This document shows, piece after piece, positions 25,722-61,034 of a stretch of 64,000 bases of DNA (the stretch's first letter is position 1; each line of letters begins with the position of its first letter). A program made the translations under genes and the position numbers. The DNA is from Amyelois transitella (lineage: Eukaryota; Arthropoda; Insecta; Lepidoptera; Pyralidae): NCBI RefSeq assembly GCF_032362555.1, contig NC_083518.1:7390501-7454500 (forward strand), read 5' to 3'. Under the pieces are notes generated by a model. That model was not told the DNA's origin. It was given only the letters and a program-made list of their open reading frames with translations, and searched no databases.

Positions 25722-28700
25722 TTACTTGGAACTTTTCATGTCGTTGAAACTGCTGCCCCATTCGACACGGCCACGATCTGCCAAAATATTGTTTGACATT
25801 AATTATTAGACATTTGGCATATTGGTCTCTCTATACACTTAAATGAAAAGCTGCATTGATTTTTATGTAGGTACTATTAGAATATTTTTTGATGAAATTT
25901 TAAATAAGTACCTTTAATTTAACTTTTTAGCGGTGAAAGTAGTTAGGTATTATCTTTGTGTAATTTATTTGTTCTACGCTTTAAGTAGGTACTATTTTAG
26001 AATATATATACATATTTCGATATAGCTATGTATATAGCCATTACATGGTAAAATTGCCTTATTTTAAATACGGCCTACGGAGGCACCCTGTGCTCCTTTC
26101 CATAGAGATGAGGATGTAACAGGGACTAACGTCAAGGCGAAGAACAAAATATCAACCAAACGTGGCCTTCGAATCTTTTCGAGACAGTTCTCTGTATATA
26201 CGGAAAGGGATATATGTAGACGTAAGATTAATAAGGCGCGGTACTAAGCAAACTTTTTTTTTAAACTTACCAGCCCGTAGAGGGGTGGCTGGCTTGTTTA
26301 TCTTCTCGGTACTTGTAGATTGACGGACCTTCCAGGCAACTGTATAAATAAATTGTAATAATAGATTATTAATACTCAATAAAAATAAGGTGTCTGTATG
26401 TAGGTACATTAAAATATTAAAAAAAAAACAAATAGTCGAGGGTTTAAGAGTAACCAAGAAAAACTATTTTTTAAATTCTTGTCTGTCTTTCTGATATGGT
26501 GTGTTTTCACAAGTAGATTACATATAATAAGGAGCGTTATCTAATCGTTTAGTTTCGTCAAAATCGGTTACGGGCGAAAGAAATTTTGGCCAATTGAAAA
26601 TTTATTTCAAGTGAAGCTTGATACAGAGTCGAATGCGGTTTACATAAACGTAAAAAAAATATTTAGATAAAGCTTGAATTCCTACTTTGTTTGACCCAAT
26701 TCCCTATATTTGTAGTTTTAGAATTAACTATAATTGTAGTTACCGCAGGTTACGCGAAAAGCGACAAACGCGGCACCTAGTATCAAAATATTAAATTTTT
26801 ACCTTCCTTTGACGTTTTGCACTCTGGCGTGATTTTCCTGAGAATTTTCTTGGTACCTGTGGAAAATTATCATTGTAATATTGCCGTGTTGTTCGCGGCA
26901 CTTAGTTATTTAGAATAGGACTAAACCATCTTATTCCCATGGATGTCAGGAAGAAAAGGAGCACATTCATCTCTTCCCTTGCAGATTGTAAAAGTCAATC
27001 AAGTAAAATAATTATAAACTTGGGGTTCTTCTTTTAATCTATGGGCTAGCAACCTGTCACTTTTGATTCTTAATTCCATGTCCTTTCCTGGATTAAGTGC
27101 CAGTTACATACTCACTACACTCTGGAGAGGAACCCGGAGTATGCCATTGACCATGGATCTTGGATTGGGTGAGTTGGGTTTTCACACGAGACGATTCCCA
27201 TCTGAACTCCGTAACCATTGCAGGTAAACCTGACTTGTGTTGCATCGATCATGGTTAAACTATACTCTGTAAAATATAGCTTGATACCTGCGACATTAGC
27301 GAGTACGTTTTAAAGACAGCTATAAGAAATTTTCTCTTGAAAATGTTCAAGTTATTAATTTTTAATAAAACATTTGTATACAAAAATACAAGCTGTTTTC
27401 AATAATGAACACGTTCCAATTGAGATACGACTAAAAACCGTAACTAATGTGCCTAAACAGAGTGTAGTTGCCTGCATGTGCAGTGTCCAAGTTTCCTAAC
27501 GATGTTTTCCCTCAACGTAAGAGCATCGGTATGTGTTCAAACTAATGTACATAGCTTCGAAATTGTTCAGTGGTAGGTACATGGCCTAGGTGGGATTCGA
27601 ACCTGTGCCTTTCTGCGCATCACGCATTGGTGGCAGTAGTCGAATCGGTAAAGTTACACCACCTTACTCCATCTCAATCGACAGTCTCAATTCCGTCATT
27701 ATGACATATAGCTGGCCTTAGGTATGGTCTTTTCAAGACTGTTGGCTTTTTTACTCCAAAAGAAAACGTATAAACATTATCATAATTAAATATTCTTTTA
27801 GGCGATTGGCTAGCAACCCGTCACTATTTGAATCTCAATTCTATCAAAAAGCTAAACAGCTGAACGTCTTTTCAAGTTTGTTGGCTTTGTCTACCCCGCA
27901 AGGGATATACAAAGCGTAAATATAGTCGTGATGATATGTATGTATGTATAAATTAATATTAAATGATATCCCAATCAATAACAAATGTTTTCATTGTTCT
28001 TACATTCAAATTTCGCTTTGCGCTCTGGTGCGTTATTCTTTAGAAGGGTGGCGGCATCTGTGCAAAAATATCATAGGCATTTAATACCGAAATAGTGCCG
28101 TGTGGTTCCCGGCGCTTTTTAAGGTTATGGGCTAAGAACCTGTCGCTATTTTAATCCAGCCGAACGTGGCTTTTCGATTTTAGCAAGACTGTTGAATCTG
28201 TCTAATCAGTAAAATCTGGCACGCCATCTACTTATAGATAGGTATAATAAATGAATTGATTTGATTGGAGGAGAAAAAGTTGAGCAAGTGAAAGAGTTTG
28301 TATATCTAGGATCAAAGTTTACATCAGATGGCAAGTGTGATAGCGATATTGAAAGGAGAGTGAACGCGGGGAACATGGTGAATGGAGCTTTGCATGCCTT
28401 TATGAGCAGTCAGAAACTATCCAAAAAGGCTCGACTGGCTGTGCATGGGGGCGTGTTGGTCCCGACATTAATGTATGGGAGTGAAAGTTGGGTATGGCAA
28501 AAGAGGCACGAAAGCATGAAAGTGGAAATAAGAGCGTTAAGGTAGGTACTCCTTAATCCGGTCACTCAATTTCACACCCAACATACTTGTTGGGTGTGAA
28601 ATTGAGTGACCGGATAAGGAACAGCGTGATAAGGGAATGTTGTGATGTGAAAGAAGATGTAGTTACAGGAATAGAAAAGTGTATGTTGAGATGGTTCGGT

Positions 28701-31562
28701 CATGTGGAGAGGATGAATGAAAACAGGTTGACTAAGCAGATATACAAGGAGAGTGTGGAGGGAAAGGTCGGAGTGGGAAGACCTAGACGAACGTATCTTG
28801 ATCAAATTAAGGACGTCCTGGTAAAGAGTCAGGTCAAAAGTACCCGAAACCGAGCTTGCATGAAGAGAGTTATGAATGTGGATGAAGCGAAGGAAATATG
28901 CAGAGATCGTGGCAAGTGGAAAGAGGTAGTCTCTGCCTACCCCTCCGGGAAAGAGGCGTGATTTTATGTATGTATGTATAATAAATGAAGGTAGGTACAT
29001 AAGAGATTTGGCAAATCTGTGCCACGTACATATACGTACGTCTGACTTTTATAATAAAAATCATTACTGAGAAGTCTCGGTTGTATAATACTCACTAGAT
29101 GAACCTGTGCTATTCCTCCGCGAGTTGTTGCCTGTGGACGAGCACGATGGAGATGGTGAAACCTGTAACAACCGATTCAAATCCTAGAGGAAACCTACAC
29201 ATACAACTGGATGCTCAACCAGGATATATATTTTCTACTAGCTGTTGCGCACGACTTCCTTCGCCTTAAAAGGTTATTGACAATTTTTCATCCACTCTTT
29301 TAAATCCTTCGCCCCCTTTTTTTTGCAATAAAATGTAGCCTTTCTCAGAGACTACTATTTCTGTACTAAATTCCATAAAAATCGGTTAAGTGGTTTGGGC
29401 TTGAAGGCGTTACAGACGTTACGTAAAGACGTTATATATGGATGACTAGAGGCTGCCCGCGACTTCGTCCGCGTGGAATCAATCCCGCGGGAACTCCGGG
29501 ATAAAAAGTAATAGCTTATATGTTATTCTGGGTCTTCAGCTACCTACATACCAAATTTCATCGTAATCGGTTCAGAAATTTTGCGCGGAAGAGTAACATC
29601 CATACTGACATCCTTACATACTCACAAACTTTCGCATTTATAATATTAGTAGGATTTTGCGACATGTGGTTAGCTCGCATGGCATAGAAAGGGCTGAGAC
29701 AAAATATTGTATAAAACACTTACACTCCTAACATCTGCTTCATTATTTTGTTCTTTGAGTTGAAGGTCTTCCTGCAATGAAATAAAAGTTCATTGAAAAT
29801 TTTTCATCCCCTCTTTTAACCCCTTCTCTCCCCTTTTCCGCAATAAAATTAAACCTTTCTCAGGGACAACTCTATTTCTGTATTACATTTCATCAAAATC
29901 GGTTCAGTGGTTTAGCGGATGGTAGGATGATTTTGCGACTTAAAACACTTACTCTCACAACATCTGCTCCAATTCTCTTTTCTTCGAGTTGAAAGACTTC
30001 CTGCAATAAAATAAAAATGTTTACTTATGCAGTGCCTTTGTCCAGTCGAATGGGTTTATTCAAAGACGTAACACAACATAACAATATAATCACGTCTATA
30101 TTCCTTGCAGGGAAGACAGAGTCAACAGTCATCTAATGACTGAACACGTTCAGCTGTTCGGCTTAATGATAGAATTGAGATTCAAACAGTGACAGGTTAC
30201 TAGCCCATCGCCTAAAAGAGAAATCAAGTATATACCCACCTAAGCCTGTCCCTTAGTCGCCCATTACGACATCCATGGGAAGGAGATGGAGTGGTCTAAT
30301 TCTTTTTTTTCTTTTGGTGCCGGGAACCACACGGCACTAAAGACCTTATTACTAAGCGGATGCTTAGTAATAGGGTCCCGTTTTTACCTTTTACGTACCC
30401 GTGTTACCTAGAAACACGTATACCTTTTACGTATACGTGTTTTTAGTTACAGAACCCTAAAAATTATGACGTATTTTGAATAATCTGTTTTAAATATTTC
30501 CTAATAGTGTTACTGATATGTGCTTTATAGCTGTTGTTTGTAGGTTTTATAAGCGCTCAATTCACGAATTCCTAATTTTAGGTTTAAATGATTTTCAGTT
30601 TTGGATTACTTGCAATTAAGTATATTCTTAAATTAACATGTTATTCACCATCATCGGTTAATTTTGAATTTCAAAAGAAACATAAGAATTTTTTTGGGAC
30701 CTATTGAAGTAAATAGTAAAGTAATTTAAGATTGTAGCGTAGTACTTAGTTGCAGAATATGTTAGTAGGTAGGTACCTACTTATACAAAAAAAACAGTTT
30801 GCAAAATAATTTTGTAATTTTTTTACCATTGAGTGATTCGTTGGGCGTGGGGTTTTACCCCATTTGGCAGTAATATATCAAGAGAAAGAAATAATGAGCT
30901 TAATAAATTGATTTTTTTTTATAATTGTGGGTAAAAAATAAAACTTTTTGAAATAAATTGAACAGTTATTTCAGTACTGGTAGAACTTAATGAGAAAGCT
31001 ACGTTAGTTTAACGGCTTCATTCATGGTGTTGTCGCATTAATTTCATATTCTAAGCTCACCAGACCCCAGGCACGAATGCAACTGGGAACTCGCTAAGGT
31101 GAGAGAGCTTACCTCAGGAATTTCCGTATCAACCGATATGAAATTTGTATCTGAACTTGATGATGGGCATCGTGGCTTAGGAGACACTGTATATAGTATG
31201 GTATCGGTGTCTGCACGTTTCAGAGGCTCCGTTGATACCTTGTCTTCTTTTGCTTCTATTTCCTCGCTGATATCTGCAGACTCTGGTTCAGTTTCTTCAA
31301 GTAGTTCTGGTAGCATATTAACATTTAAGTTATCTTCGGCCTCATTGTTCTCGTCCTGTTTTGTTAAATTAAAGAACGGAATAGTTTCTATAAACTTATT
31401 CCAAGCTGTAATTTGTTCCGAAAATTGTGTTATGGTGTCATTTTGTTTTATAATAACTTCCTCCAATTCGTCAACTTTCTGAGCAAGGAAGTCTACATTT
31501 GCTTTAATCATCATTATTGATTTATCTAAAGAAGATAACGGACCCATTTTGTTTTTAAACAT
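25722..31562 (-). CDS. Chimeric gene: coiled-coil N-terminus plus maelstrom C-terminal tail
   Basis: Eight exons: 31562-31113, 30000-29953, 29771-29724, 29162-29096, 28057-28004, 26856-26803, 26339-26271, 25777-25722. All are GT-AG and phases agree throughout, giving 281 residues ending at TAA. Exon 1 (residues 1-150) starts MFKNKMGPLSSLDKSI, has a predicted coiled coil at about 10-60 (FLAQKVDELEEVIIKQN) and an acidic Ser-rich remainder. I do not recognise it. Exons 2-8 (151-281) are paralogous to mael exons 7-11: exon 4 shares 12 of 22 residues (PSCSST) and the last exon 9 of 18 (RGR, SFN, SK-stop). Exons 2 and 3 are both copies of mael exon 7; exons 5 and 6 are both copies of mael exon 9. 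The HMG box and MAEL domain are absent. Splicing is predicted, not observed; an alternative is a pseudogene still looking intact. Confidence 0.65.
26880..27080 (+). repeat. SINE, family 1 (diverged)
   Basis: Sense-plus copy beginning 'gccgtgttgttcgcggcact', with 'cccatggatgtc' and 'gggctagcaacctgtcactt'. It lies in an intron of the chimeric gene, antisense to it. Confidence 0.65.
27095..27665 (-). repeat. tRNA-derived SINE (diverged)
   Basis: On the minus strand the head at about 27,665-27,590 has a tRNA-like A box and a B box (GGTTCGAATCCCACC), then 'aggccatg'. The body includes the block around 'tctggagaggaacccgg' and 'accatggatcttggattggg', shared with the copy at 32,900-33,310. Confidence 0.65.
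27685..28210 (+). repeat. Cluster of three family-1 SINE fragments
   Basis: Fragments at 27,685-27,775, 27,795-27,955 and 28,090-28,210, all sense-plus. The second ends in the (ATGT)n tail ('gatatgtatgtatgtata'). The third begins 'gccgtgtggttcccggcgc'. They flank exon 5 of the chimeric gene (28,004-28,057). Confidence 0.65.
28255..28985 (+). mobile_element. RTE-type LINE 3' fragment
   Basis: Plus-strand translation ([20 protein letters not shown] ... [20 protein letters not shown]) matches the C-terminal third of the 824-codon frame at 56,435-58,909. It ends with the same 'ggcgtgattttatgtatgta' tail. The frame is interrupted by an inserted inverted segment at 28,546-28,587 and by small indels. 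It lies in the intron between exons 4 and 5 of the chimeric gene, antisense. Confidence 0.9.
28550..28620. repeat. Quasi-palindrome inside the RTE fragment
   Basis: 28,550-28,583 is the reverse complement of 28,588-28,620 apart from one extra A, around a 4-nt loop TACT. The right arm is normal RTE sequence; the left arm is an added inverted copy, because the element at 56.4-58.9 kb lacks it. Confidence 0.9.
29238..29440 (-). mobile_element. Helitron-like element (degraded)
   Basis: On the minus strand it ends in CTAG next to T (plus 'a|ctagctgttgcgcac'), with a decayed 'gacttccttcgcc' terminal block. It abuts the better-preserved Helitron that starts at 29,446. The 5' end is not certain. Confidence 0.5.
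29446..29654 (-). mobile_element. Non-autonomous Helitron (209 bp)
   Basis: Read on the minus strand it begins TCCTACTAATATTATAAATG and ends CGCGGACGAAGTCGCGGGCA...CTAG, between A and T. The family is related to the Helitrons at 13.4 and 14.9 kb but has a different 5' end. It lies in an intron of the chimeric gene. Confidence 0.8.
30085..30342 (-). repeat. SINE, family 1 (near full length)
   Basis: Carries all family-1 blocks in order: 'atcacgtctatattccttgc', 'gttcagctgttcggcttaat', 'gacaggttactagcccatcg', 'gacatccatgggaaggagat' and 'gtgccgggaaccacacggca'. It marks the approximate upper end of duplicated copy B. Confidence 0.85.
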
Positions 31563-39000: not shown

Positions 39001-42000
39001 CTTTAGAATAAGACCACTCCACATCTTACCTATGGATGTCGTTTAAGGTGACCAAGGGAACAAGGCTAATAAACATGAGATTCACCTTCTAGGCGATGGG
39101 CTAGCAACTTATCACTATTTGAATCTTATTTCCATCATTGAGACATACACAGCTGAAGGTCCTGTCCACTCCGCAAGATAGATATTTACCTTATTGCACC
39201 AAAAGAAAAACCGAGAAAAAGGTACAAAGGCGGACTTATCGCTAAAGCAATCTCTTCCTGTTAACCTTTGGGTGGGAGGAAACTAAAGAACATGTACGAG
39301 TATGTATATCTCGTTTTTGAGTCGACTTGTAGTTTCTGGGATATAGAGGTATTCAATTGGTTCGGGTGCTTCTGTAGTATTTTGCTGTAATTTGCAACAA
39401 TACTTCTGTCATGGGCATATTCAGGATTTCATGAACTACGGCTATCTTTATAAACCTTGATAGAAAATATTATCTACGATTCGTCTTATGTTGTTCAAAA
39501 AGACTAAAGAAGTTAATAAAACAATTATAAAACACTTACGCTTGCAACACTTGGTCCAGCTCGGACTTTTCTTTGTTCTTTAAATTGAAGTATTCCCTGC
39601 AATTAAGAAAATAGTGATATAGATAGTTAAAATGCAGGGTCCTTGGTGTTCAGCATGTAAGACTGAAAAAACCTGCACTCTTTTGTATGTGGCGTCGAAT
39701 TCGCCCGGGCGAAGTTGCTTCTTAAAGCTAGTTGAGATATAGAGCTGAGCTTGACCTTCAATCTTTTCGTAACGAATAAAAATCTTTATTGTTCTTCAAC
39801 ATGATTATCAAATTAGTAGACTACTAAATGTTTTTACTGAGATTTTTTAATATATTATTTATTTCATAAATAGTTTTTACCTGTAGCTTCATTCGCGCGA
39901 AATAGTAGCAACCTGATCGCGCGTGCCAACTGTTCTGTTATATTATGTATCTGTTAAAAACTAACGCGTGGCAATTAGTTTTTAACAGATATGAAAACTA
40001 CCCTATATCCTTCTCAAGAACGCAAAAATTCAAGAAGATCAATTCAGTAGATATAACAGAAAATGTTTCAGTAGAGACAACAAACAAACATACTTACTTT
40101 CGCATTTATAATTTTATACAGTCGAGTGTATCCACTCACCTCGATGTTGTAATCGTGCGGCACGTGTTTCCCGGGCGCGGGTTCGACGTCCGTGCGAGGC
40201 AGCGCCAGGTCGAGCACGGAGTACGCCCAGCGCGTCACTCGCGACTTGGCGCACTCCGTAGACTTGTCCAAGTCCTCGTGGTGCTGTGGAAACGAACAGA
40301 TTCTTGCATATTTGCAATGTGCAATCTTGAATTGTGATAAGGGATTCTCACACCCGCGGGAATTTTCACAAATATTAACAAGCCTGGTTACTCCTGAAGG
40401 TTCTTGCCATCGGATATTTTTTTAAATAATTCATGAAATATAAAAGATATATTTCACAAAAAGATTATAGCTTAAAATGTGGATGGATATGTGTATAAAA
40501 AGTACAAAACAAAAAATCCAAACTGGGGTTAGTCATAACGTAACCCACCAAGCTGACTCAAAGTGGGTTGGTACAATTGCAAAATACATTTCATTTTGGG
40601 AACGATACAAGATATTGTTCCGTGGCGTTTAATAGAATAGGACCATTCCTTCTCTTATCCGTGGATGTCGTAAAAACGACTCAGGGATATGTTACTAAAC
40701 TTGAGATTCTTCTTGTAGGCAATAGGCTAGCAATCTGTCCCTATTTGAATCTCAATTTCATCATAAAGACATACAGTTGAATGTAGTCTTTCAGTGTTTT
40801 CAAGACTGTTGGCTCTGTCTACGCCCCAAGGGTTATAGACGTGACTATACGTATGTAAAAAATGTGTGCGTGTCCCTTGCAAAGGAATATGGTCAAAAGG
40901 TATAACCCGAGCTGATCTCCAGAGTCAAGAGAAGCAGACAAATAAAGTCTTACTTGACAACCGAGTCCAGGCGTGTATTTAAAGCCGTCTTGCTTCAGGT
41001 GACCCATGGCCAGCGATTCTTTAGGCAGCATCATCTCCTTGGAGCTGGCCAGCCCATTCACCAATGTGAACAGCAGGGTGTCCAAACGGTACACGCGGAA
41101 TAATGAGTCGTCTTCAGCTGTAAGGGAATAAAATTAGTTCAGTTTATTTGAAAACTAGGTTTTACCCGCAGCTTCGGCCGCACCTACAAAATTTTGCGCC
41201 ACCAACAAAAAGGGACGAATTTAGCGCCACCACGGAAACCATAGCTTTATCGGGATGAAAAGTTCCCTATGTCCTTCTCCACACGCTTAATTCTAAGTAT
41301 ACATGCTAAATTTCAATATTTGTTCAGTAGGTAACGCGTGAAGAGACAACAAACAAATAAAATTACTATCACGTATTCCTCACGCTATCAACATTACGCT
41401 GCCGCTATCTTGGATACCGTCTTTTAAATTTTTATTATTTTGATTTTAATATTTATTAAAAAAAAAGGTGTTTGATTGTGTTTATAAGATACAAATCGCA
41501 TTGTACTAATATTACAAATGTTTGTTACTCCTTCACCCAAAAACTACATACATACATATATAATCAAGTCTTTATTTCTTACGGAGTAGACAGAGCCAAC
41601 ATCTATGTATGGCTTTAATGATGTAATTGAAATTCAAATAGTGAGGGATTGCTAGTCTATCATGTAGAAGAAGAATGCAAAGTCTATTAGCCTATACCTA
41701 AGTCGCCTTTTACGACATCCTAAATTTCTTTAAGATGTCATAAAATACACAAAAACTATTGAACGGATTTTGATGAAATTGAGAGGACATAGACATAGGA
41801 TACTAGAATTCCAATTGGAGTGAATCCCTGGTGCGCTGTAAGTGTAGTACACTCACAAGCCTTGTTGCACAGCTGAATAATAAAATCTTGAACCGCCTCC
41901 ACTTTTTCCGGCACAGTGAATATCGGGGGAAAGTTCTTCATATCTGGACGCTGAGAATTGGGCCTGTCCTCTTGGTTGTGTTGGTGGAGATAGTCTATGA

Positions 42001-55600: not shown

Positions 55601-58600
55601 GCTGGAGCTCACGCGGCTGGTGGACGCCAGGCGCGTCTACCTCGCCACGGACGACGCTAATGTTAGTCCACCACTAATAATAATGAGAAGAAAACGATTT
55701 GTATTTTTGTGTTTTTATTGTAACGAATAAGTTGATCATGTAAAAAATTATAGGACCAGTCCATCTCTTTCCCACGGATGTGGTGGTGACTAGGATAGGA
55801 TAATAAACTTAGGATTCTTCTTTTAGGTGATGGGCTAACTACCTGTCACTATTTAGATCTCATCGTCTCATCGTCGTCATCTCATTCGTTTGTATGTTCT
55901 GAGTAAAAGTGAAGTCATTTGAATTGAAAATGACCTGCTTTAGAAGATGTAGGTATTGTAAATAATATTAAATAAAAAACCCGCCTGCGTAAAAACAAAT
56001 CAATAATTGATTACGTTTTTCAAAACATGTTTGTTTGTTTACTGTTTCGGTCCCGAAACTTTAAATTTAAACTCGTAATCGGGAAATAAACTAATTATTC
56101 ATTTAATCAGGTCCTAGATGACGCCCGCAAGAAGTACCCGGACTACGTTTTCCTCGGCGACCCGTCCATAGCCAGGACTGCGGCCACGCATCGCCGGTAC
56201 ACGCCTCTCTCTCTCACGGGGCTCCTAGTGGACCTCCACATGCTTTCCATGTGTGACTATCTCGTGTGCACATTCAGTAGCCAGGTAGGTCCATCATCTA
56301 CTCAAGTTCATTATCTTTCGACAGTCAACAAAATAAAATCTTCAACAAACAAAAAAAATAGAACCTAAAATATGACAGACTATCTATAGTCACAATCTCG
56401 CCCAGGAATTACATACATACATACATACATAAAATCACGCCTCTTTCCCGGAGGGGTAGGCAGAGACTACCTCTTTCCACTTGCCACGATCTCTGCATAC
56501 TTCTTTCGCTTCGTCCACATTCATAACTCTCTTCATACAAGCTCGGCGGTTTCGGGTACTTTTGACCTGACCCTTTACCAGGACGTCCTTAATTTGATCA
56601 AGATACGTTCGTCTAGGTCTTCCCACTCCGACCTTTCCCTCCACACTCTCCTTGTATATCTGCTTAGTCAACCTGCTTTCATTCATCCTCTCCACATGAC
56701 CGAACCATCTTAACATACCCTTTTCTATTCCTGTAACTACATCTTCTTTCACATCACAACATTCCCTTATCACGCTGTTCCTTATCCTGTCACTCAATTT
56801 CACACCCATCATACTCCTTAACGCTCTCATTTCCACTGCATTTATTCTGCTTTCATGCTTCTTTTGCCATACCCAACTTTCACTCCCATACATTAATGTC
56901 GGGACCAACACGCCCCTGTGCACAGCCAGTCGAGCCTTTTTGGATAGTTTCTGACTGCTCATAAAGGCATGCAAAGCTCCATTCACCATGTTCCCCGCGT
57001 TCACTCTCCTTTCAATATCACTATCATACTTGCCATCTGATGTAAACTTTGATCCTAGATATACAAACTCTTTCACTTGCTCCACTTTTTCTCCTCCAAT
57101 CAAAATATTACATGCTGTCATTTCTTTCTCCATTTCAAAAACCAGTGTTTTAGTTTTACTTACGTTCACTTTCATTCCTTTCTCTTTTAAAGCTTCATGC
57201 ATACAGTTTACCATCTCCTGTAACTCCTCCGCTGATGACGCCAGTATAACCTGATCGTCGGCATAGAGCAGACATTTGACGAGTAACTCATTCATCCTTA
57301 ATCCACTTTTAGACTCTTTCAAATCTGTCAAACAGCTATCCATAAATAGGTTGAACAGCCACGGTGACGCAACACATCCTTGCCTAACGCCTTTCTCAAT
57401 CTTAAACCACTCAGTGTGCGCTCCGTTTATCCTGACACAAGCACTCGAATCCTCATATAAGGATTTCAGTGCTCGTATTAAGAGACTGCTCACCCCATGC
57501 ATAGAAAGTGCTGACCACAATTCATTCCTCTCAACTCTGTCATAGGCCTTTTCCAGATCTACGAATGTGCAATAGACTTTTTGACTCTTGGCCAAAAACT
57601 TTTCGGCTATGCACCGCAAGGAAAAGACCTGATCAGTACATCCCATTCCCTTTCGAAATCCCGCTTGAGCATCCCATATTTTGTCATCAGTTTCATTCCT
57701 GACTCTATTAATCAATACCTTAGCATACAATTTGCCGACGACGCTAAGCAGGCTTATACCACGATAATTTTTGCAGTCCAGCTGTGACCCTTTTCCTTTG
57801 TAAAGTGGCACGATAACAGCCTTACACCAATCTTTTGGTACTCGGCCGCTTCTCCAACACAAATTGAAAAGGCAGTACAACTGACTAGCTACTACGCCTT
57901 TTCCTGCTTTAAGCATCTCGACCGACACTCTATCACACCCAGCAGCCTTTCCCGCTTTCATACTCTTAAGTGCTTCCACAATTTCGAACATTTCAATTTC
58001 GCCTTCCATCTCATTCTCTTTTTCTTCGCTATAGCAGAAATCTTTCTTATTTCCTTCCTTTTTTTCAAATAAACTTTCAAAATAGTCCTTCCATATCTTT
58101 AGTACACATTCTTCTCCTTTCACAACGCTACCATCCTGGCATCTGATCCTAGTCAGCTCTCTGGTTATAGTATTTCCTCGGGCTGACCTTACGGATTTCC
58201 AGAATACTTTCAGATTTGACTGAAAGTCTTCTGATAGCCTTTTATCAAAATCCTCTTTATACTCTTCTTTCTTTCTAATCACAGCTTTCTTAACCAAATC
58301 TTTCATTTTCTTATATTCCTTACGTGCTTCATTCACATCTTCATCTATAACCTCTTGCATTCTTAAGTTAGCTTTTGCTGCTAACAAATCCAGCCATGCT
58401 TTCTTCTTTAATCGCACAAGTTCTTGCACATCTTTACTCATCCACGCATTTTTGTGATTTTTTCCTTTCCTTCTTCTACTTACACCACACACTTCAACAG
58501 CTACTTTCACAATTCTTTCTTTAAATTCCTTCCATCCATCTTCAATATCGCTCATTTCATCTAAATCTTCAAATTCATCCTTCAGTCTATTAATATACTT

Positions 58601-61034
58601 CTTACCTACATCCATATCTTGCAAATTTTCTACTTTTACTCTTTCCAAAGCGCTGGTTTGCTCCCTTACCCTGTGCCGCCAGCGATTGAAGATACCCCTT
58701 ATCCGGGATATCACCAGTAAATGGTCCGAGTCAATGCCAGCACCGCGATATGCACGGGTATCCAGCACTTTGTTCTTCAATCTTTCATCTACAATCACAA
58801 AGTCTATCATACTTTTTAAAATACCTTCCACTCTTGTGTAGGTGTGGATCTCTTTATGTTGAAACATTGAGTTCGACACAAAAAGATCCCACTCTAGACA
58901 AATTTCCAATTAGGAAGGGAATTATACAAAACAAAAAATCCCGTTCGCTCGTTCTAAAATGGATCTTAAAATATTGCAATAAACACGCTTTTCAAATAAC
59001 TTCTGAAAACTGTGGCTACGCTTTGCCGATACACGCCTCTCTGTCACAGGACTCTTGATGGACCTTCACATGCTTTCCCCATGCGATTTCCACGTGTGTA
59101 CATCTCTGATCCCTGATATTGAGAAATTTGCATTTATTTTCTAAACATTCACAATTTTTTGGATTAATTTACTACAGAAATGGATTTTTCTTCTCATATC
59201 AAAATTTATATATATTATTTGGCGAGAAACGCCGAGAAATTCCTTGTAGTGCACATCTGAATTACATAAAGAACCTAAATGGCTAATTTAAATCTCTCTA
59301 TCTACAATCTATTAGTAACCTTTTTTTTATTATTAAGATTGTAAATTAATTTCAATCACTAGTCAATTGGTCAGTTACCTCTATTATTATGTAAAATTTA
59401 ATGTTTTTTTTTAAATTGTCAGGTGGGGCGTGTGGCCTACGAGATGATGCAGACAAACAGACTGGACGCGTCCAACAGTTTCTATTCACTGGACGACATC
59501 TACTATTTCGGCGGACAAAATGCGCACGATCGCATCGCGGTCATGCCAAATAAGGGCGGGAACCATGATATATCATTAGAGGTGATTTTTTTTACTCTTT
59601 TGTGTCTTTATCCCTTGCGAGATTGACAGAACCAACAGTCATGAAAAGATATTCAGCCCGATGGCTTAGTGATGGCATTTAGATTCAAATAGTGACAGGT
59701 TGCTAGCATATCGCCTAAAAGAAGATCCCAAGTGATAAGCCAGATTATGTGATATCTGCCTACTTCTCTGGAAAAATGTATTACCAACATGTATGAGTCT
59801 TTGGTCCGATTCAGAGCTTGTCCAACTGAATTTTATTTCATTTACTGCCATAATATTTGGTCTAGATACATAAGCCTATTGTTGGATCCCCTTCCCATTT
59901 TTATATAAAATACATACATATGGTTAAGTCTATATCCCTTGCGTCTTGAAAAGACTGAATGGTCACGTTCAGCTATTTGGCTTAATGATAGAATTGAGAT
60001 TCAAATAGTGACAGGTTGCTAGCCCTTCGCCTAAAAAGAATCTCAAGTTTGTAAGCCTATCCCTTAGTCGCCTTTTACGACATCCATGGGAAAGAGATGG
60101 AGTGGTCCTATTCTTGTTTGTATTGGTGCTGGGAACCACACGGCAAAAATACATACATAAAGACAGATATAGTCAATAGACTCCAAAACCATGCTCAGCT
60201 GTGGCCTGGCCCAATGATGGAACCGACATTCAAATGGTTACAATTAATTTATTACTATAGCATAGTGCACTTTTTCTCAATGGTGCAAAATTATATTATG
60301 GCGGCACTGTATGTTCTTTCCTTGCTGCATTTAATAAAAACTTACGTTTATTTACAGGTAAACGATCTTATAGGCATCGCGGGCAACCATTGGAATGGTT
60401 ACGGCCGCGGCACGAACAAGAGGAGTAATGTGGTAAGTGAGCATTTACACACATCGGACACTTGAAATAAATCCATGTTAAGAGTGTTTTTGAAAAAAAA
60501 AGTATTTTGCATTCATCATTCCGACAGTTTTTGGTTTCGGTTGCGACCTGGGTTTGGTTTGTATTACACCTCTACACAATATTACACCACACATTAAATT
60601 TTTTTTTATAATACATACATACATAAAATCACGCCTCTTTCCCGGAGGTAGGCAGAGACTACCTCTTTCCACTTGCCACGATCTCTGCATACTTCCTTTG
60701 CTTCATCCACATTCATAACTCTCTTCATGCAAACTCGGCGGTTTCGGGTACTTTTTTTTTTTTTTAAATATTTGGTTTCAATTAAAATATTTCAAAGATC
60801 AAGATTTTCCTTTGCTTAAGACATTGGGATACATTATGTGGTACTAAAATTTTAAGACCCACATACTTCATTGATTACAGGTGTGCAATTTAAATACTTC
60901 ATATGAATTATTTTTTTATTTTTCAGAACGGCCTCGTCCCTTGGTACAAGACTGCGGATCACCTGGTATTATATCCGTTTCCGGAATACAAGCAAGTGCC
61001 ACTTTATTCCGACACCAGGCAAAAAGAGTTATAA
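46641..61034 (+). CDS. FucT6: Alpha-1,6-fucosyltransferase (FUT8, FucT6)
   Basis: Golgi enzyme adding core alpha-1,6-fucose to N-glycans from GDP-fucose. Twelve coding exons: 46641-46774, 47005-47127, 47511-47720, 49215-49380, 52799-52985, 54615-54714, 55053-55190, 55508-55661, 56111-56284, 59423-59581, 60358-60432, 60927-61034. All are GT-AG with matching phases; 575 residues, the same length as vertebrate FUT8. Type II membrane layout: short tail, anchor at 25-44 ([16 protein letters not shown]), coiled-coil stem (about 50-105), catalytic domain. Motif I is [16 protein letters not shown] (354-369, Arg357/Arg358 for GDP binding), then VYLATDD (Asp401/Asp402) and [20 protein letters not shown]. 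The C-terminal SH3-like domain is at about 502-562 ([14 protein letters not shown]). A relic of a duplicated exon and a large LINE lie in intron 9. Confidence 0.97.
48565..48672 (+). repeat. SINE, family 1 (3' part)
   Basis: 'attaagccattcagctgaac' ... 'gattatatgtatgtaggt', in the FUT8 intron between 47,721 and 49,214. Confidence 0.7.
49920..50040 (+). repeat. RTE-type LINE C-terminal relic
   Basis: Reads [18 protein letters not shown], a decayed form of the RTE segment [18 protein letters not shown]. Frames are broken and the tail is lost. Confidence 0.6.
50570..50792 (-). mobile_element. Non-autonomous Helitron (decayed)
   Basis: On minus it ends CTAG next to T, with a decayed hairpin ('gaacgcggatctacccgcgt' on plus). 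Its body ('tgctccttatagttgcagcg', 'gagattagcgcgtttaaaca', 'cttcagctttataata') is shared with the elements at 11.6 and 14.9 kb. It sits in the 3.4-kb FUT8 intron. Confidence 0.65.
51905..52135 (-). repeat. tRNA-derived SINE (decayed)
   Basis: Fragments of the 32,900-33,310 family ('tttgaccatcctggat', 'gtcaggttttaacacgatcg', 'ggtcaccttaacgtttcgac'). It is strongly diverged. Confidence 0.5.
52425..52755 (-). repeat. SINE family 1 fragment and RTE 3' tail upstream of FUT8 exon 5
   Basis: 52,425-52,500 is a SINE fragment ('ataatcacgtctttatctgt', 'gccaacagtctcgcaga'). 52,680-52,755 is a diverged RTE end ('aaaatcacgtaggggtaggc'), ending about 45 bp before the exon at 52,799. Confidence 0.6.
53260..53470 (-). 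repeat. RTE-like LINE relic
   Basis: On minus, 'ggtcatgttgagaggatgaa' encodes GHVERMNE, the conserved segment [12 protein letters not shown] of RTE-type enzymes. The surrounding frame is broken, and the copy is older than the other RTE fragments here. Confidence 0.55.
55750..55865 (+). repeat. SINE, family 1 (partial)
   Basis: 'ggaccagtccatctctttcc', 'cttcttttaggtgatgggct' and 'acctgtcactatttagatct', 90 bp after a FUT8 exon. Confidence 0.7.
56412..58917 (-). mobile_element. RTE-type LINE, 5'-truncated, with an uninterrupted 824-codon frame
   Basis: Non-LTR retrotransposon antisense in FUT8 intron 9. The frame (58,909-56,435) opens inside the end of the AP-type endonuclease ([24 protein letters not shown]). 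The reverse transcriptase follows ([62 protein letters not shown] with its Asp pair), then a C-terminal region ([35 protein letters not shown]) ending AYPSGKEA. The 3' end is 'gtgattttatgtatgtatgt'. GGAATTA occurs at 56,405-56,411 and 58,918-58,924, a likely target duplication. The endonuclease N-terminus is missing, so this copy should not move on its own. No stop or frameshift: it is young. Confidence 0.92.
59009..59107 (+). pseudogene. Decayed duplicate of a FUT8 catalytic exon
   Basis: Nucleotides align with the 3' part of FUT8 exon 56,111-56,284 from 'actgcggccacg' (56,177) to about 56,276: both have 'acacgcctctct' and 'catgctttcc', and one frame reads [20 protein letters not shown] against [21 protein letters not shown] 2-bp deletion after 'cctctct' shifts the frame. 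The 5' half of the exon, the acceptor and the donor are absent, so it cannot be spliced as an exon. Confidence 0.8.
59605..60240 (-). repeat. Family-1 SINE cluster in a FUT8 intron
   Basis: Three sense-minus copies: 59,605-59,745 (starting 24 bp after a FUT8 exon), 59,915-60,150 (nearly full, ending 'gtgctgggaaccacacggca') and a short third at 60,152-60,240. Each begins near a (TACA)n tract. Confidence 0.75.
60612..60752 (-). repeat. RTE-type LINE 3'-end fragment
   Basis: (CATA)n then 'aaaatcacgcctctttcccg' to 'gcaaactcggcggtttcggg', close to the end of the element at 56,412-58,917. It lies in the last FUT8 intron. Confidence 0.9.

Follow-up and report, generated by a model that had tools for sequence, protein, structure and literature searches.

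A segment carrying exons 7-11 of the maelstrom gene (mael) and the start of its 3' untranslated region (3'UTR) has been tandemly duplicated downstream of mael, and a new 5' exon, X1, predicted to form a coiled coil, reads in frame into the duplicated tail. Maelstrom is a factor that helps to silence jumping genes. At a probability of about 0.66, our preferred reading is that partial tandem duplication of mael and the new 5' exon have together produced a chimeric gene for a lineage-specific, fast-evolving coiled-coil protein. On balance, the structure appears to be a gene, and the sequence evidence supports a chimeric gene over a simple pseudogene, its protein perhaps having a germline role.

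The window analysed, a 64-kb stretch of DNA, lies at C14:7390501-7454500 in a chromosome-scale genome of 327,366,114 bases (33 contigs) and contains an apparently intact mael gene on the minus strand, with 11 exons from 44510 to 36081 and GT-AG boundaries at all introns. Exons 1-6 (44510-44382, 43848-43648, 43408-43262, 42115-41855, 41115-40954 and 40283-40140), whose edges were placed by peptide, the real edges lying within 3 bases, encode the HMG box and the MAEL domain, and are followed by exons 7-11 (39596-39540, 38663-38597, 38193-38140, 36995-36924 and 36136-36081). The product matches residues 2-436 of the 449 of Bombyx Mael (PDB 9nhc_F, E 1.4e-135), a match spanning the HMG box, the MAEL domain and most of the tail. 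Profile PF13017 recognizes it at E 2.5e-39 and has two matches across the whole genome, both of them exons of this gene.

X1 (31562-31113, minus strand; 150 codons, donor gtaagc) begins about 4.5 kb downstream of mael, on the same strand, and joins the duplicated tail exons in phase 0. All of these are on the minus strand: A1 (30000-29953), the homologue of mael exon 7, shorter by 9 nt; A2 (29771-29724), the tandem duplicate of A1; B (29162-29096), the homologue of exon 8; C1 (28057-28004), the homologue of exon 9, and C2 (26856-26803), its second copy; D (26339-26271), the homologue of exon 10, shorter by 3 nt; and E (25777-25722, including the stop codon), the homologue of exon 11. Beyond the stop codon, the start of the 3'UTR (25721-25558) is homologous to the mael 3'UTR at 36080-35907. 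Spliced over its eight exons, the structure yields an open reading frame (ORF) of 281 amino acids with GT-AG boundaries at 7/7 introns, and we recover exon for exon what the preliminary description had proposed, namely seven open, canonically spliced paralogues of mael exons 7-11, entered in phase 0 from a 150-codon exon. Net length changes against the mael exons amount to 9 nt (A) and 3 nt (D) with no frameshift, and no lesion of the kind that marks a pseudogene was seen in any exon or splice site. The product was also expected to lack the HMG box and the MAEL fold, and at E up to 1 neither HMG profiles nor PF13017 matches the 281 residues, PF13017 reaching 2.5e-39 on the neighbouring Mael.

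Mael exons 7 (A) and 9 (C) are each doubled in the chimeric gene, with 82% identity between A1 and A2 over a 78-nt block and 65% between C1 and C2 over a 121-column block. A pair of 75% identical blocks, repeat-like by eye, flanks A2 (29915-29744 and 29398-29229); the first extends 28 nt into A2, so that the repeat may have had a part in the exon doubling. The intron between B and C1 holds an ORF (28557-28961, plus strand) that by eye resembles a piece of a reverse-transcriptase-like ORF at 56435-58909, itself open over 824 codons and of non-LTR type by eye. An interspersed element pair occupies intron 1 of the chimeric gene (30252-30028) and mael intron 3 (43073-42897), the translated pieces, 12 to 24 residues long, being 83 to 100% identical.

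The N-terminal half of X1 has the pattern of a coiled coil: in residues 6-54, 13 of the 14 heptad a/d positions are hydrophobic, a regularity equalled by 0/500 shuffles of the first 70 residues. The second half (residues 66-150) is acidic, with a net charge of -16, and the chimeric tail is basic (+9, the same as the Mael tail) and Ser-rich in exon B. The X1 frame is the only one of six with a positive coding score, at 0.097 bits per codon over 150 codons, compared with 0.148 for the chimeric tail and 0.219 for the mael tail; this score is not decisive, because 9 of 92 noncoding ORFs of at least 50 aa exceed it (those nine being 51 to 86 aa long). Searches of Pfam and PDB with X1 gave weak matches of coiled-coil type and nothing stronger: the heptad region is weakly similar to SlyX (PF04102; E 0.0026, 18.8 bits against a curated cut-off of 30) and CC2-LZ (PF16516; E 0.0088, 16.9 bits against 35.3), both below their curated cut-offs. 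The chimeric tail has no match in PDB at E up to 10. We considered whether the 3' end of X1 is an extra copy of exon B (VSPKPRC.. against VSPSPSC..) and rejected this, shuffles being as good in 354/1000 cases for the window's B and 866/1000 for that of mael. Among viral contigs, 8 stretches fit the X1 pattern and 0 were confirmed; among bacterial and archaeal contigs, 527 fit the mael-tail pattern and, as expected, 0 were confirmed.

Homology between the two tails is above chance (E down to 1.8e-18) and extends into the introns and about 160 nt of the 3'UTR, which makes this a tandem duplication at the DNA level and not a retrocopy. The tails had been described as about half identical, and the counts given for exons B (12/22 residues) and E (9/18) are exact; the remaining exons are lower, with 4 to 9 identical residues of 16 to 23; over the whole tail, 40 or 41 of 97 aligned codons, by choice of doubled exon, encode the same residue. 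Across these 97 codons, nucleotide identity is 0.62, dN is 0.47 and dS is 0.78 or 0.73, and dN/dS is 0.60 (bootstrap 0.34-0.98) or 0.65 (0.37-1.11), again by choice of doubled exon; the amino-acid constraint behind these values would lie mainly on the mael side. Between the doubled exons themselves, dN/dS is 2.3 (0.93 to 9.9), over 34 codons, too few to claim diversifying selection. In end-free alignment the 3'UTRs agree at 103/160 aligned bases, and of the 9 gaps 7 are not multiples of three. The alignment score exceeds that of 500/500 shuffles, which attain an identity of 0.63 over fewer columns (0.64 for the 3'UTR). In the pooled 60-nt flanks, 520/752 positions are identical (shuffles 0.63), and the exons, at 0.62, are no more alike than the flanks; flank identities from fully global alignment were discarded, as shuffled exon D reached 0.71.

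The 3'UTR divergence, d 0.24, provides a rough neutral yardstick, soft and possibly too low, in which case neutral retention of the tail would be even less likely. We simulated neutral decay in 5000 replicates, taking each mael tail exon once and scoring nine splice dinucleotides, the frame and the absence of stops. At d 0.24, survival was 0/5000 with an indel ratio of 0.16 (near the 3'UTR values) and 0.0002 with ratios of 0.1 and 0.05; at d 0.15, it reached 0.0034 with the lowest indel ratio (0.05) and, wherever else d was at least 0.15, stayed at or below 0.0004; the mildest setting (d 0.1, indel ratio 0.05) gave 0.024. In an earlier simulation (doubled exons, splice sites excluded, 3000 replicates each), survival lay between 0.0003 and 0.0153 for d 0.15 and between 0 and 0.001 for d 0.25. 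The frames and splice sites are kept beyond simulated neutral expectation, and the argument that a pseudogene of such age should have lost them withstands this calculation, in which 0 or 1 of 5000 survive at d 0.24. A reading of the exons as neutral debris with frames open by chance would account for the nearly equal divergence of exons and flanks and for the 9/92 noncoding ORFs that beat the X1 coding score, but it has to meet both the heptad pattern of X1 and a simulated survival that, for d of at least 0.15, peaks at 0.0034 (d 0.15, lowest indel ratio) and otherwise stays within 0.0004, and we regard it as hardly credible.

Trace of an early transcript of the chimeric gene seems to survive elsewhere in the genome. 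A DNA search of the moth's own genome with X1 leads to a cluster on another chromosome, C23, where C23:5497381-5497010 aligns with a query of X1 plus the mael tail exons over 403 columns (63.5%, E 2e-24), continuously across the X1|A join, and with X1 plus the window's own tail exons over 361 columns (62.3%, E 1e-16). In this relic the 3' end of X1 abuts exon-A sequence and the intron is absent, the exon-exon join by which a processed retrocopy is recognized; the exon-A match begins with the second base beyond this join. There, mael exon A scores 134, compared with no more than 89 over 60 nt, or 84 over 120 nt, among 1000 shuffles and with 79-80 for the best site elsewhere on the 17-kb C23 stretch, and the opening 120 nt of intron 1 show no match to the same sequence (456/500 shuffles as good). 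Taken alone, the window's A1 and A2 were equalled by 100/1000 and 213/1000 shuffles over 60 nt and by 39/1000 and 102/1000 over 120 nt; since only mael exon A matches significantly, the exon-A state of the relic is nearer to that of mael. Read in phase, the relic gives RII*FEEQKKVRVEPSVT, alongside Mael GILQFKEQRKVRAGPSVAS. Its continuation across A|B is weak, the mael B being equalled by 3 or 10, and the window B by 30 or 88, of 1000 shuffles. The relic ends within exon B, the exon-B part lying near an inverted repeat that is MITE-like by eye, and a search for poly-A found no run of 8 A over 711 nt past the end.

The simplest reading of this relic is a retrocopy of an early spliced X1|A transcript, which on C23 would have decayed while X1 pieces were amplified. 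X1 lies downstream of mael and could therefore not be spliced in cis to mael's own exon A today; the relic suggests that the chimeric gene was once transcribed and spliced through X1|A. Compared with X1, it shows 10 gaps that break the frame and, at aligned codons, 1 stop, counts that depend on the alignment, and it forms a decayed contrast to the intact gene on C14. It adjoins a tandem array (1295-base period, 3.2 copies) with further X1-like pieces; over C23:5497010-5502589, 16/16 of the X1-like pieces listed are on one strand. The array also holds a transposase fragment, Tc1/mariner-type by eye and 88-89% identical to window 20283-19986, and an exon resembling the LDL-receptor class A by eye lies near the X1-like pieces.

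A transposon origin of X1 was considered and rejected, the C23 relics being its sole DNA-level relatives found in 327 Mb, and a protein-level search of the genome gave a C23 match at E 1.27 and two others above 9, none convincing beyond these relics. The genome DNA searches score the best candidates only, so that diverged copies can be missed: the mael-tail query did not list the chimeric tail, nor did the chimeric-tail query list the mael tail.

The relic also bears on whether the distal exons might be alternative 3' ends of mael itself, with exon 6 (phase 0, ending at 40140) spliced to A1 to yield a differently tailed Mael isoform, and X1 incidental. Compatible phases and a position on the same strand about 10 kb downstream would allow this, but in the relic exon A follows X1 and not mael exon 6, the X1 frame is open and ends in an in-phase donor, and over half of the Mael-conserved residues have been lost from these exons; we assign such splicing a low probability.

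The age and rate of the chimeric tail were assessed with Bombyx Mael (PDB 9nhc) as the single outgroup, over 82 columns of hand-joined alignments. Where the two Maels differ, the chimeric tail sides with the neighbouring Mael in 14:4 (p 0.03) or 16:2 (p 0.0013) columns, which indicates that the tail duplication is probably younger than the divergence from Bombyx. Lineage-specific changes number 22:4 (p 0.0005) or 21:2 (p 0.00007) for the chimeric relative to the mael tail, and the chimeric tail appears to change at several times the rate of the mael tail. With dN split by these change counts and dS split evenly, dN/dS would be about 1 on the chimeric branch and about 0.2 on the mael branch. 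Mismatches between X1 and the C23 relic number 26, 28 and 26 at codon positions 1, 2 and 3, and none of the other four C23 copies shows a third-position excess; this even distribution gives no sign of strong amino-acid constraint on X1. Frame conservation and sequence conservation part ways in the chimeric gene, its frames and splice sites being kept while its amino acids are almost free, as would be expected of a disordered tail or an arms race.

Such rates raise the prospect of a recently dead gene, a coding chimera for most of its life whose expression or translation has now ceased. The near-neutral amino-acid rate that we estimate for the chimeric side and the lack of codon-position bias agree with this, but the exons and splice sites are free of any lesion, and we consider recent death unlikely. 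In the preferred reading, the C14 gene would have gained second copies of exons A and C and changed quickly with frames and splice sites retained, and it would be, or until lately have been, a protein gene.

The preliminary description had proposed that the tail could act as an adaptor, competitor or decoy for whatever binds the Mael tail, a proposal that our comparison with Bombyx counts against. Among the 40 residues common to this Mael and Bombyx Mael, the chimeric tail keeps 18 (or 19) and has lost 22 (or 21); among the other 42 columns, it keeps 14 (or 16), so that the Mael-conserved residues are not preferentially retained (Fisher p 0.37, or p 0.50), and the tail also evolves faster. In Drosophila, the contact of Mael with AGO3 and Aub is placed in the MAEL domain by AlphaFold2, and the Mael C-terminus is described as disordered, in the available part of PMC12014135. 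Mael has also been reported within a Spn-E and Qin complex that binds unloaded Siwi (PMC11094040, in the part available), and PMC4408791 makes no mention of the C-terminal region, duplicates, paralogs or Lepidoptera. A decoy or competitor would profit from a homologous tail that is still basic (+9, like that of Mael) with a Ser-rich exon B, and from the avidity that a coiled coil would add; the indifference to Mael-conserved columns (18/40 against 14/42, or 19/40 against 16/42) and the predicted placement of the Mael-PIWI contact in the MAEL domain (Drosophila, AlphaFold2; available part of PMC12014135) make such a role distinctly doubtful. The chimeric tail probably no longer does the job of the Mael tail.

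If the chimeric gene encodes a protein, X1 may form a homodimer or oligomer through its heptad region of about 49 residues and display a basic, Ser/Arg-rich and probably disordered tail. As the likeliest mechanism we tentatively propose a germ-cell scaffold oligomerised by X1, with a basic, fast-evolving tail that would have lost the contacts of Mael's own; action in germ cells is suggested because a heritable retrocopy requires a germline transcript. Were it expressed in the moth germline, the gene would be a fast-evolving addition at the mael locus, outside Pfam coverage. A more elaborate possibility is conflict with transposon silencing, in which a lineage-specific germline coiled-coil protein on a hijacked Mael tail, diversifying as its exons double, would be checked by small RNAs from the broken, amplified C23 copies; we think this very unlikely. 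The Stellate / Su(Ste) pair would offer the comparison for such an arrangement.

Among the known systems closest to the chimeric gene is Maelstrom (Bombyx Mael, PDB 9nhc_F and 5af0; PF13017): exons A-E are homologous to exons 7-11, the C-terminal tail, of the neighbouring mael. Unlike Maelstrom, the chimeric product lacks both the HMG box and the MAEL domain, begins with a predicted coiled coil, and carries a tail that is about 41% identical to the mael tail and accelerated. In the Drosophila obscura group mael has also been duplicated, and the new copy of D. pseudoobscura is reported to show evidence of adaptive protein evolution (PMC6505081, in the part available); that duplicate moved from an autosome to the X, whereas here the 3' part alone was copied, in tandem, and fused to a new exon, and the available part of PMC6505081 makes no mention of a fusion. 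In the open-access literature, including the available parts of PMC5844692 and PMC11288676, we found no gene with the structure of X1 plus a mael tail. The locus, with the parent gene adjoining and an apparent molecular fossil of the early transcript surviving on C23, lends itself to tests of new-gene formation from part of a genome-defence factor. In chimeric genes of the jingwei kind, a duplicated part of an old gene is combined with a new exon and then evolves fast, as here. The difference lies in the donor part, which in the present case is a tail duplicated in tandem as DNA, the putative retrocopy being a by-product and not the source.
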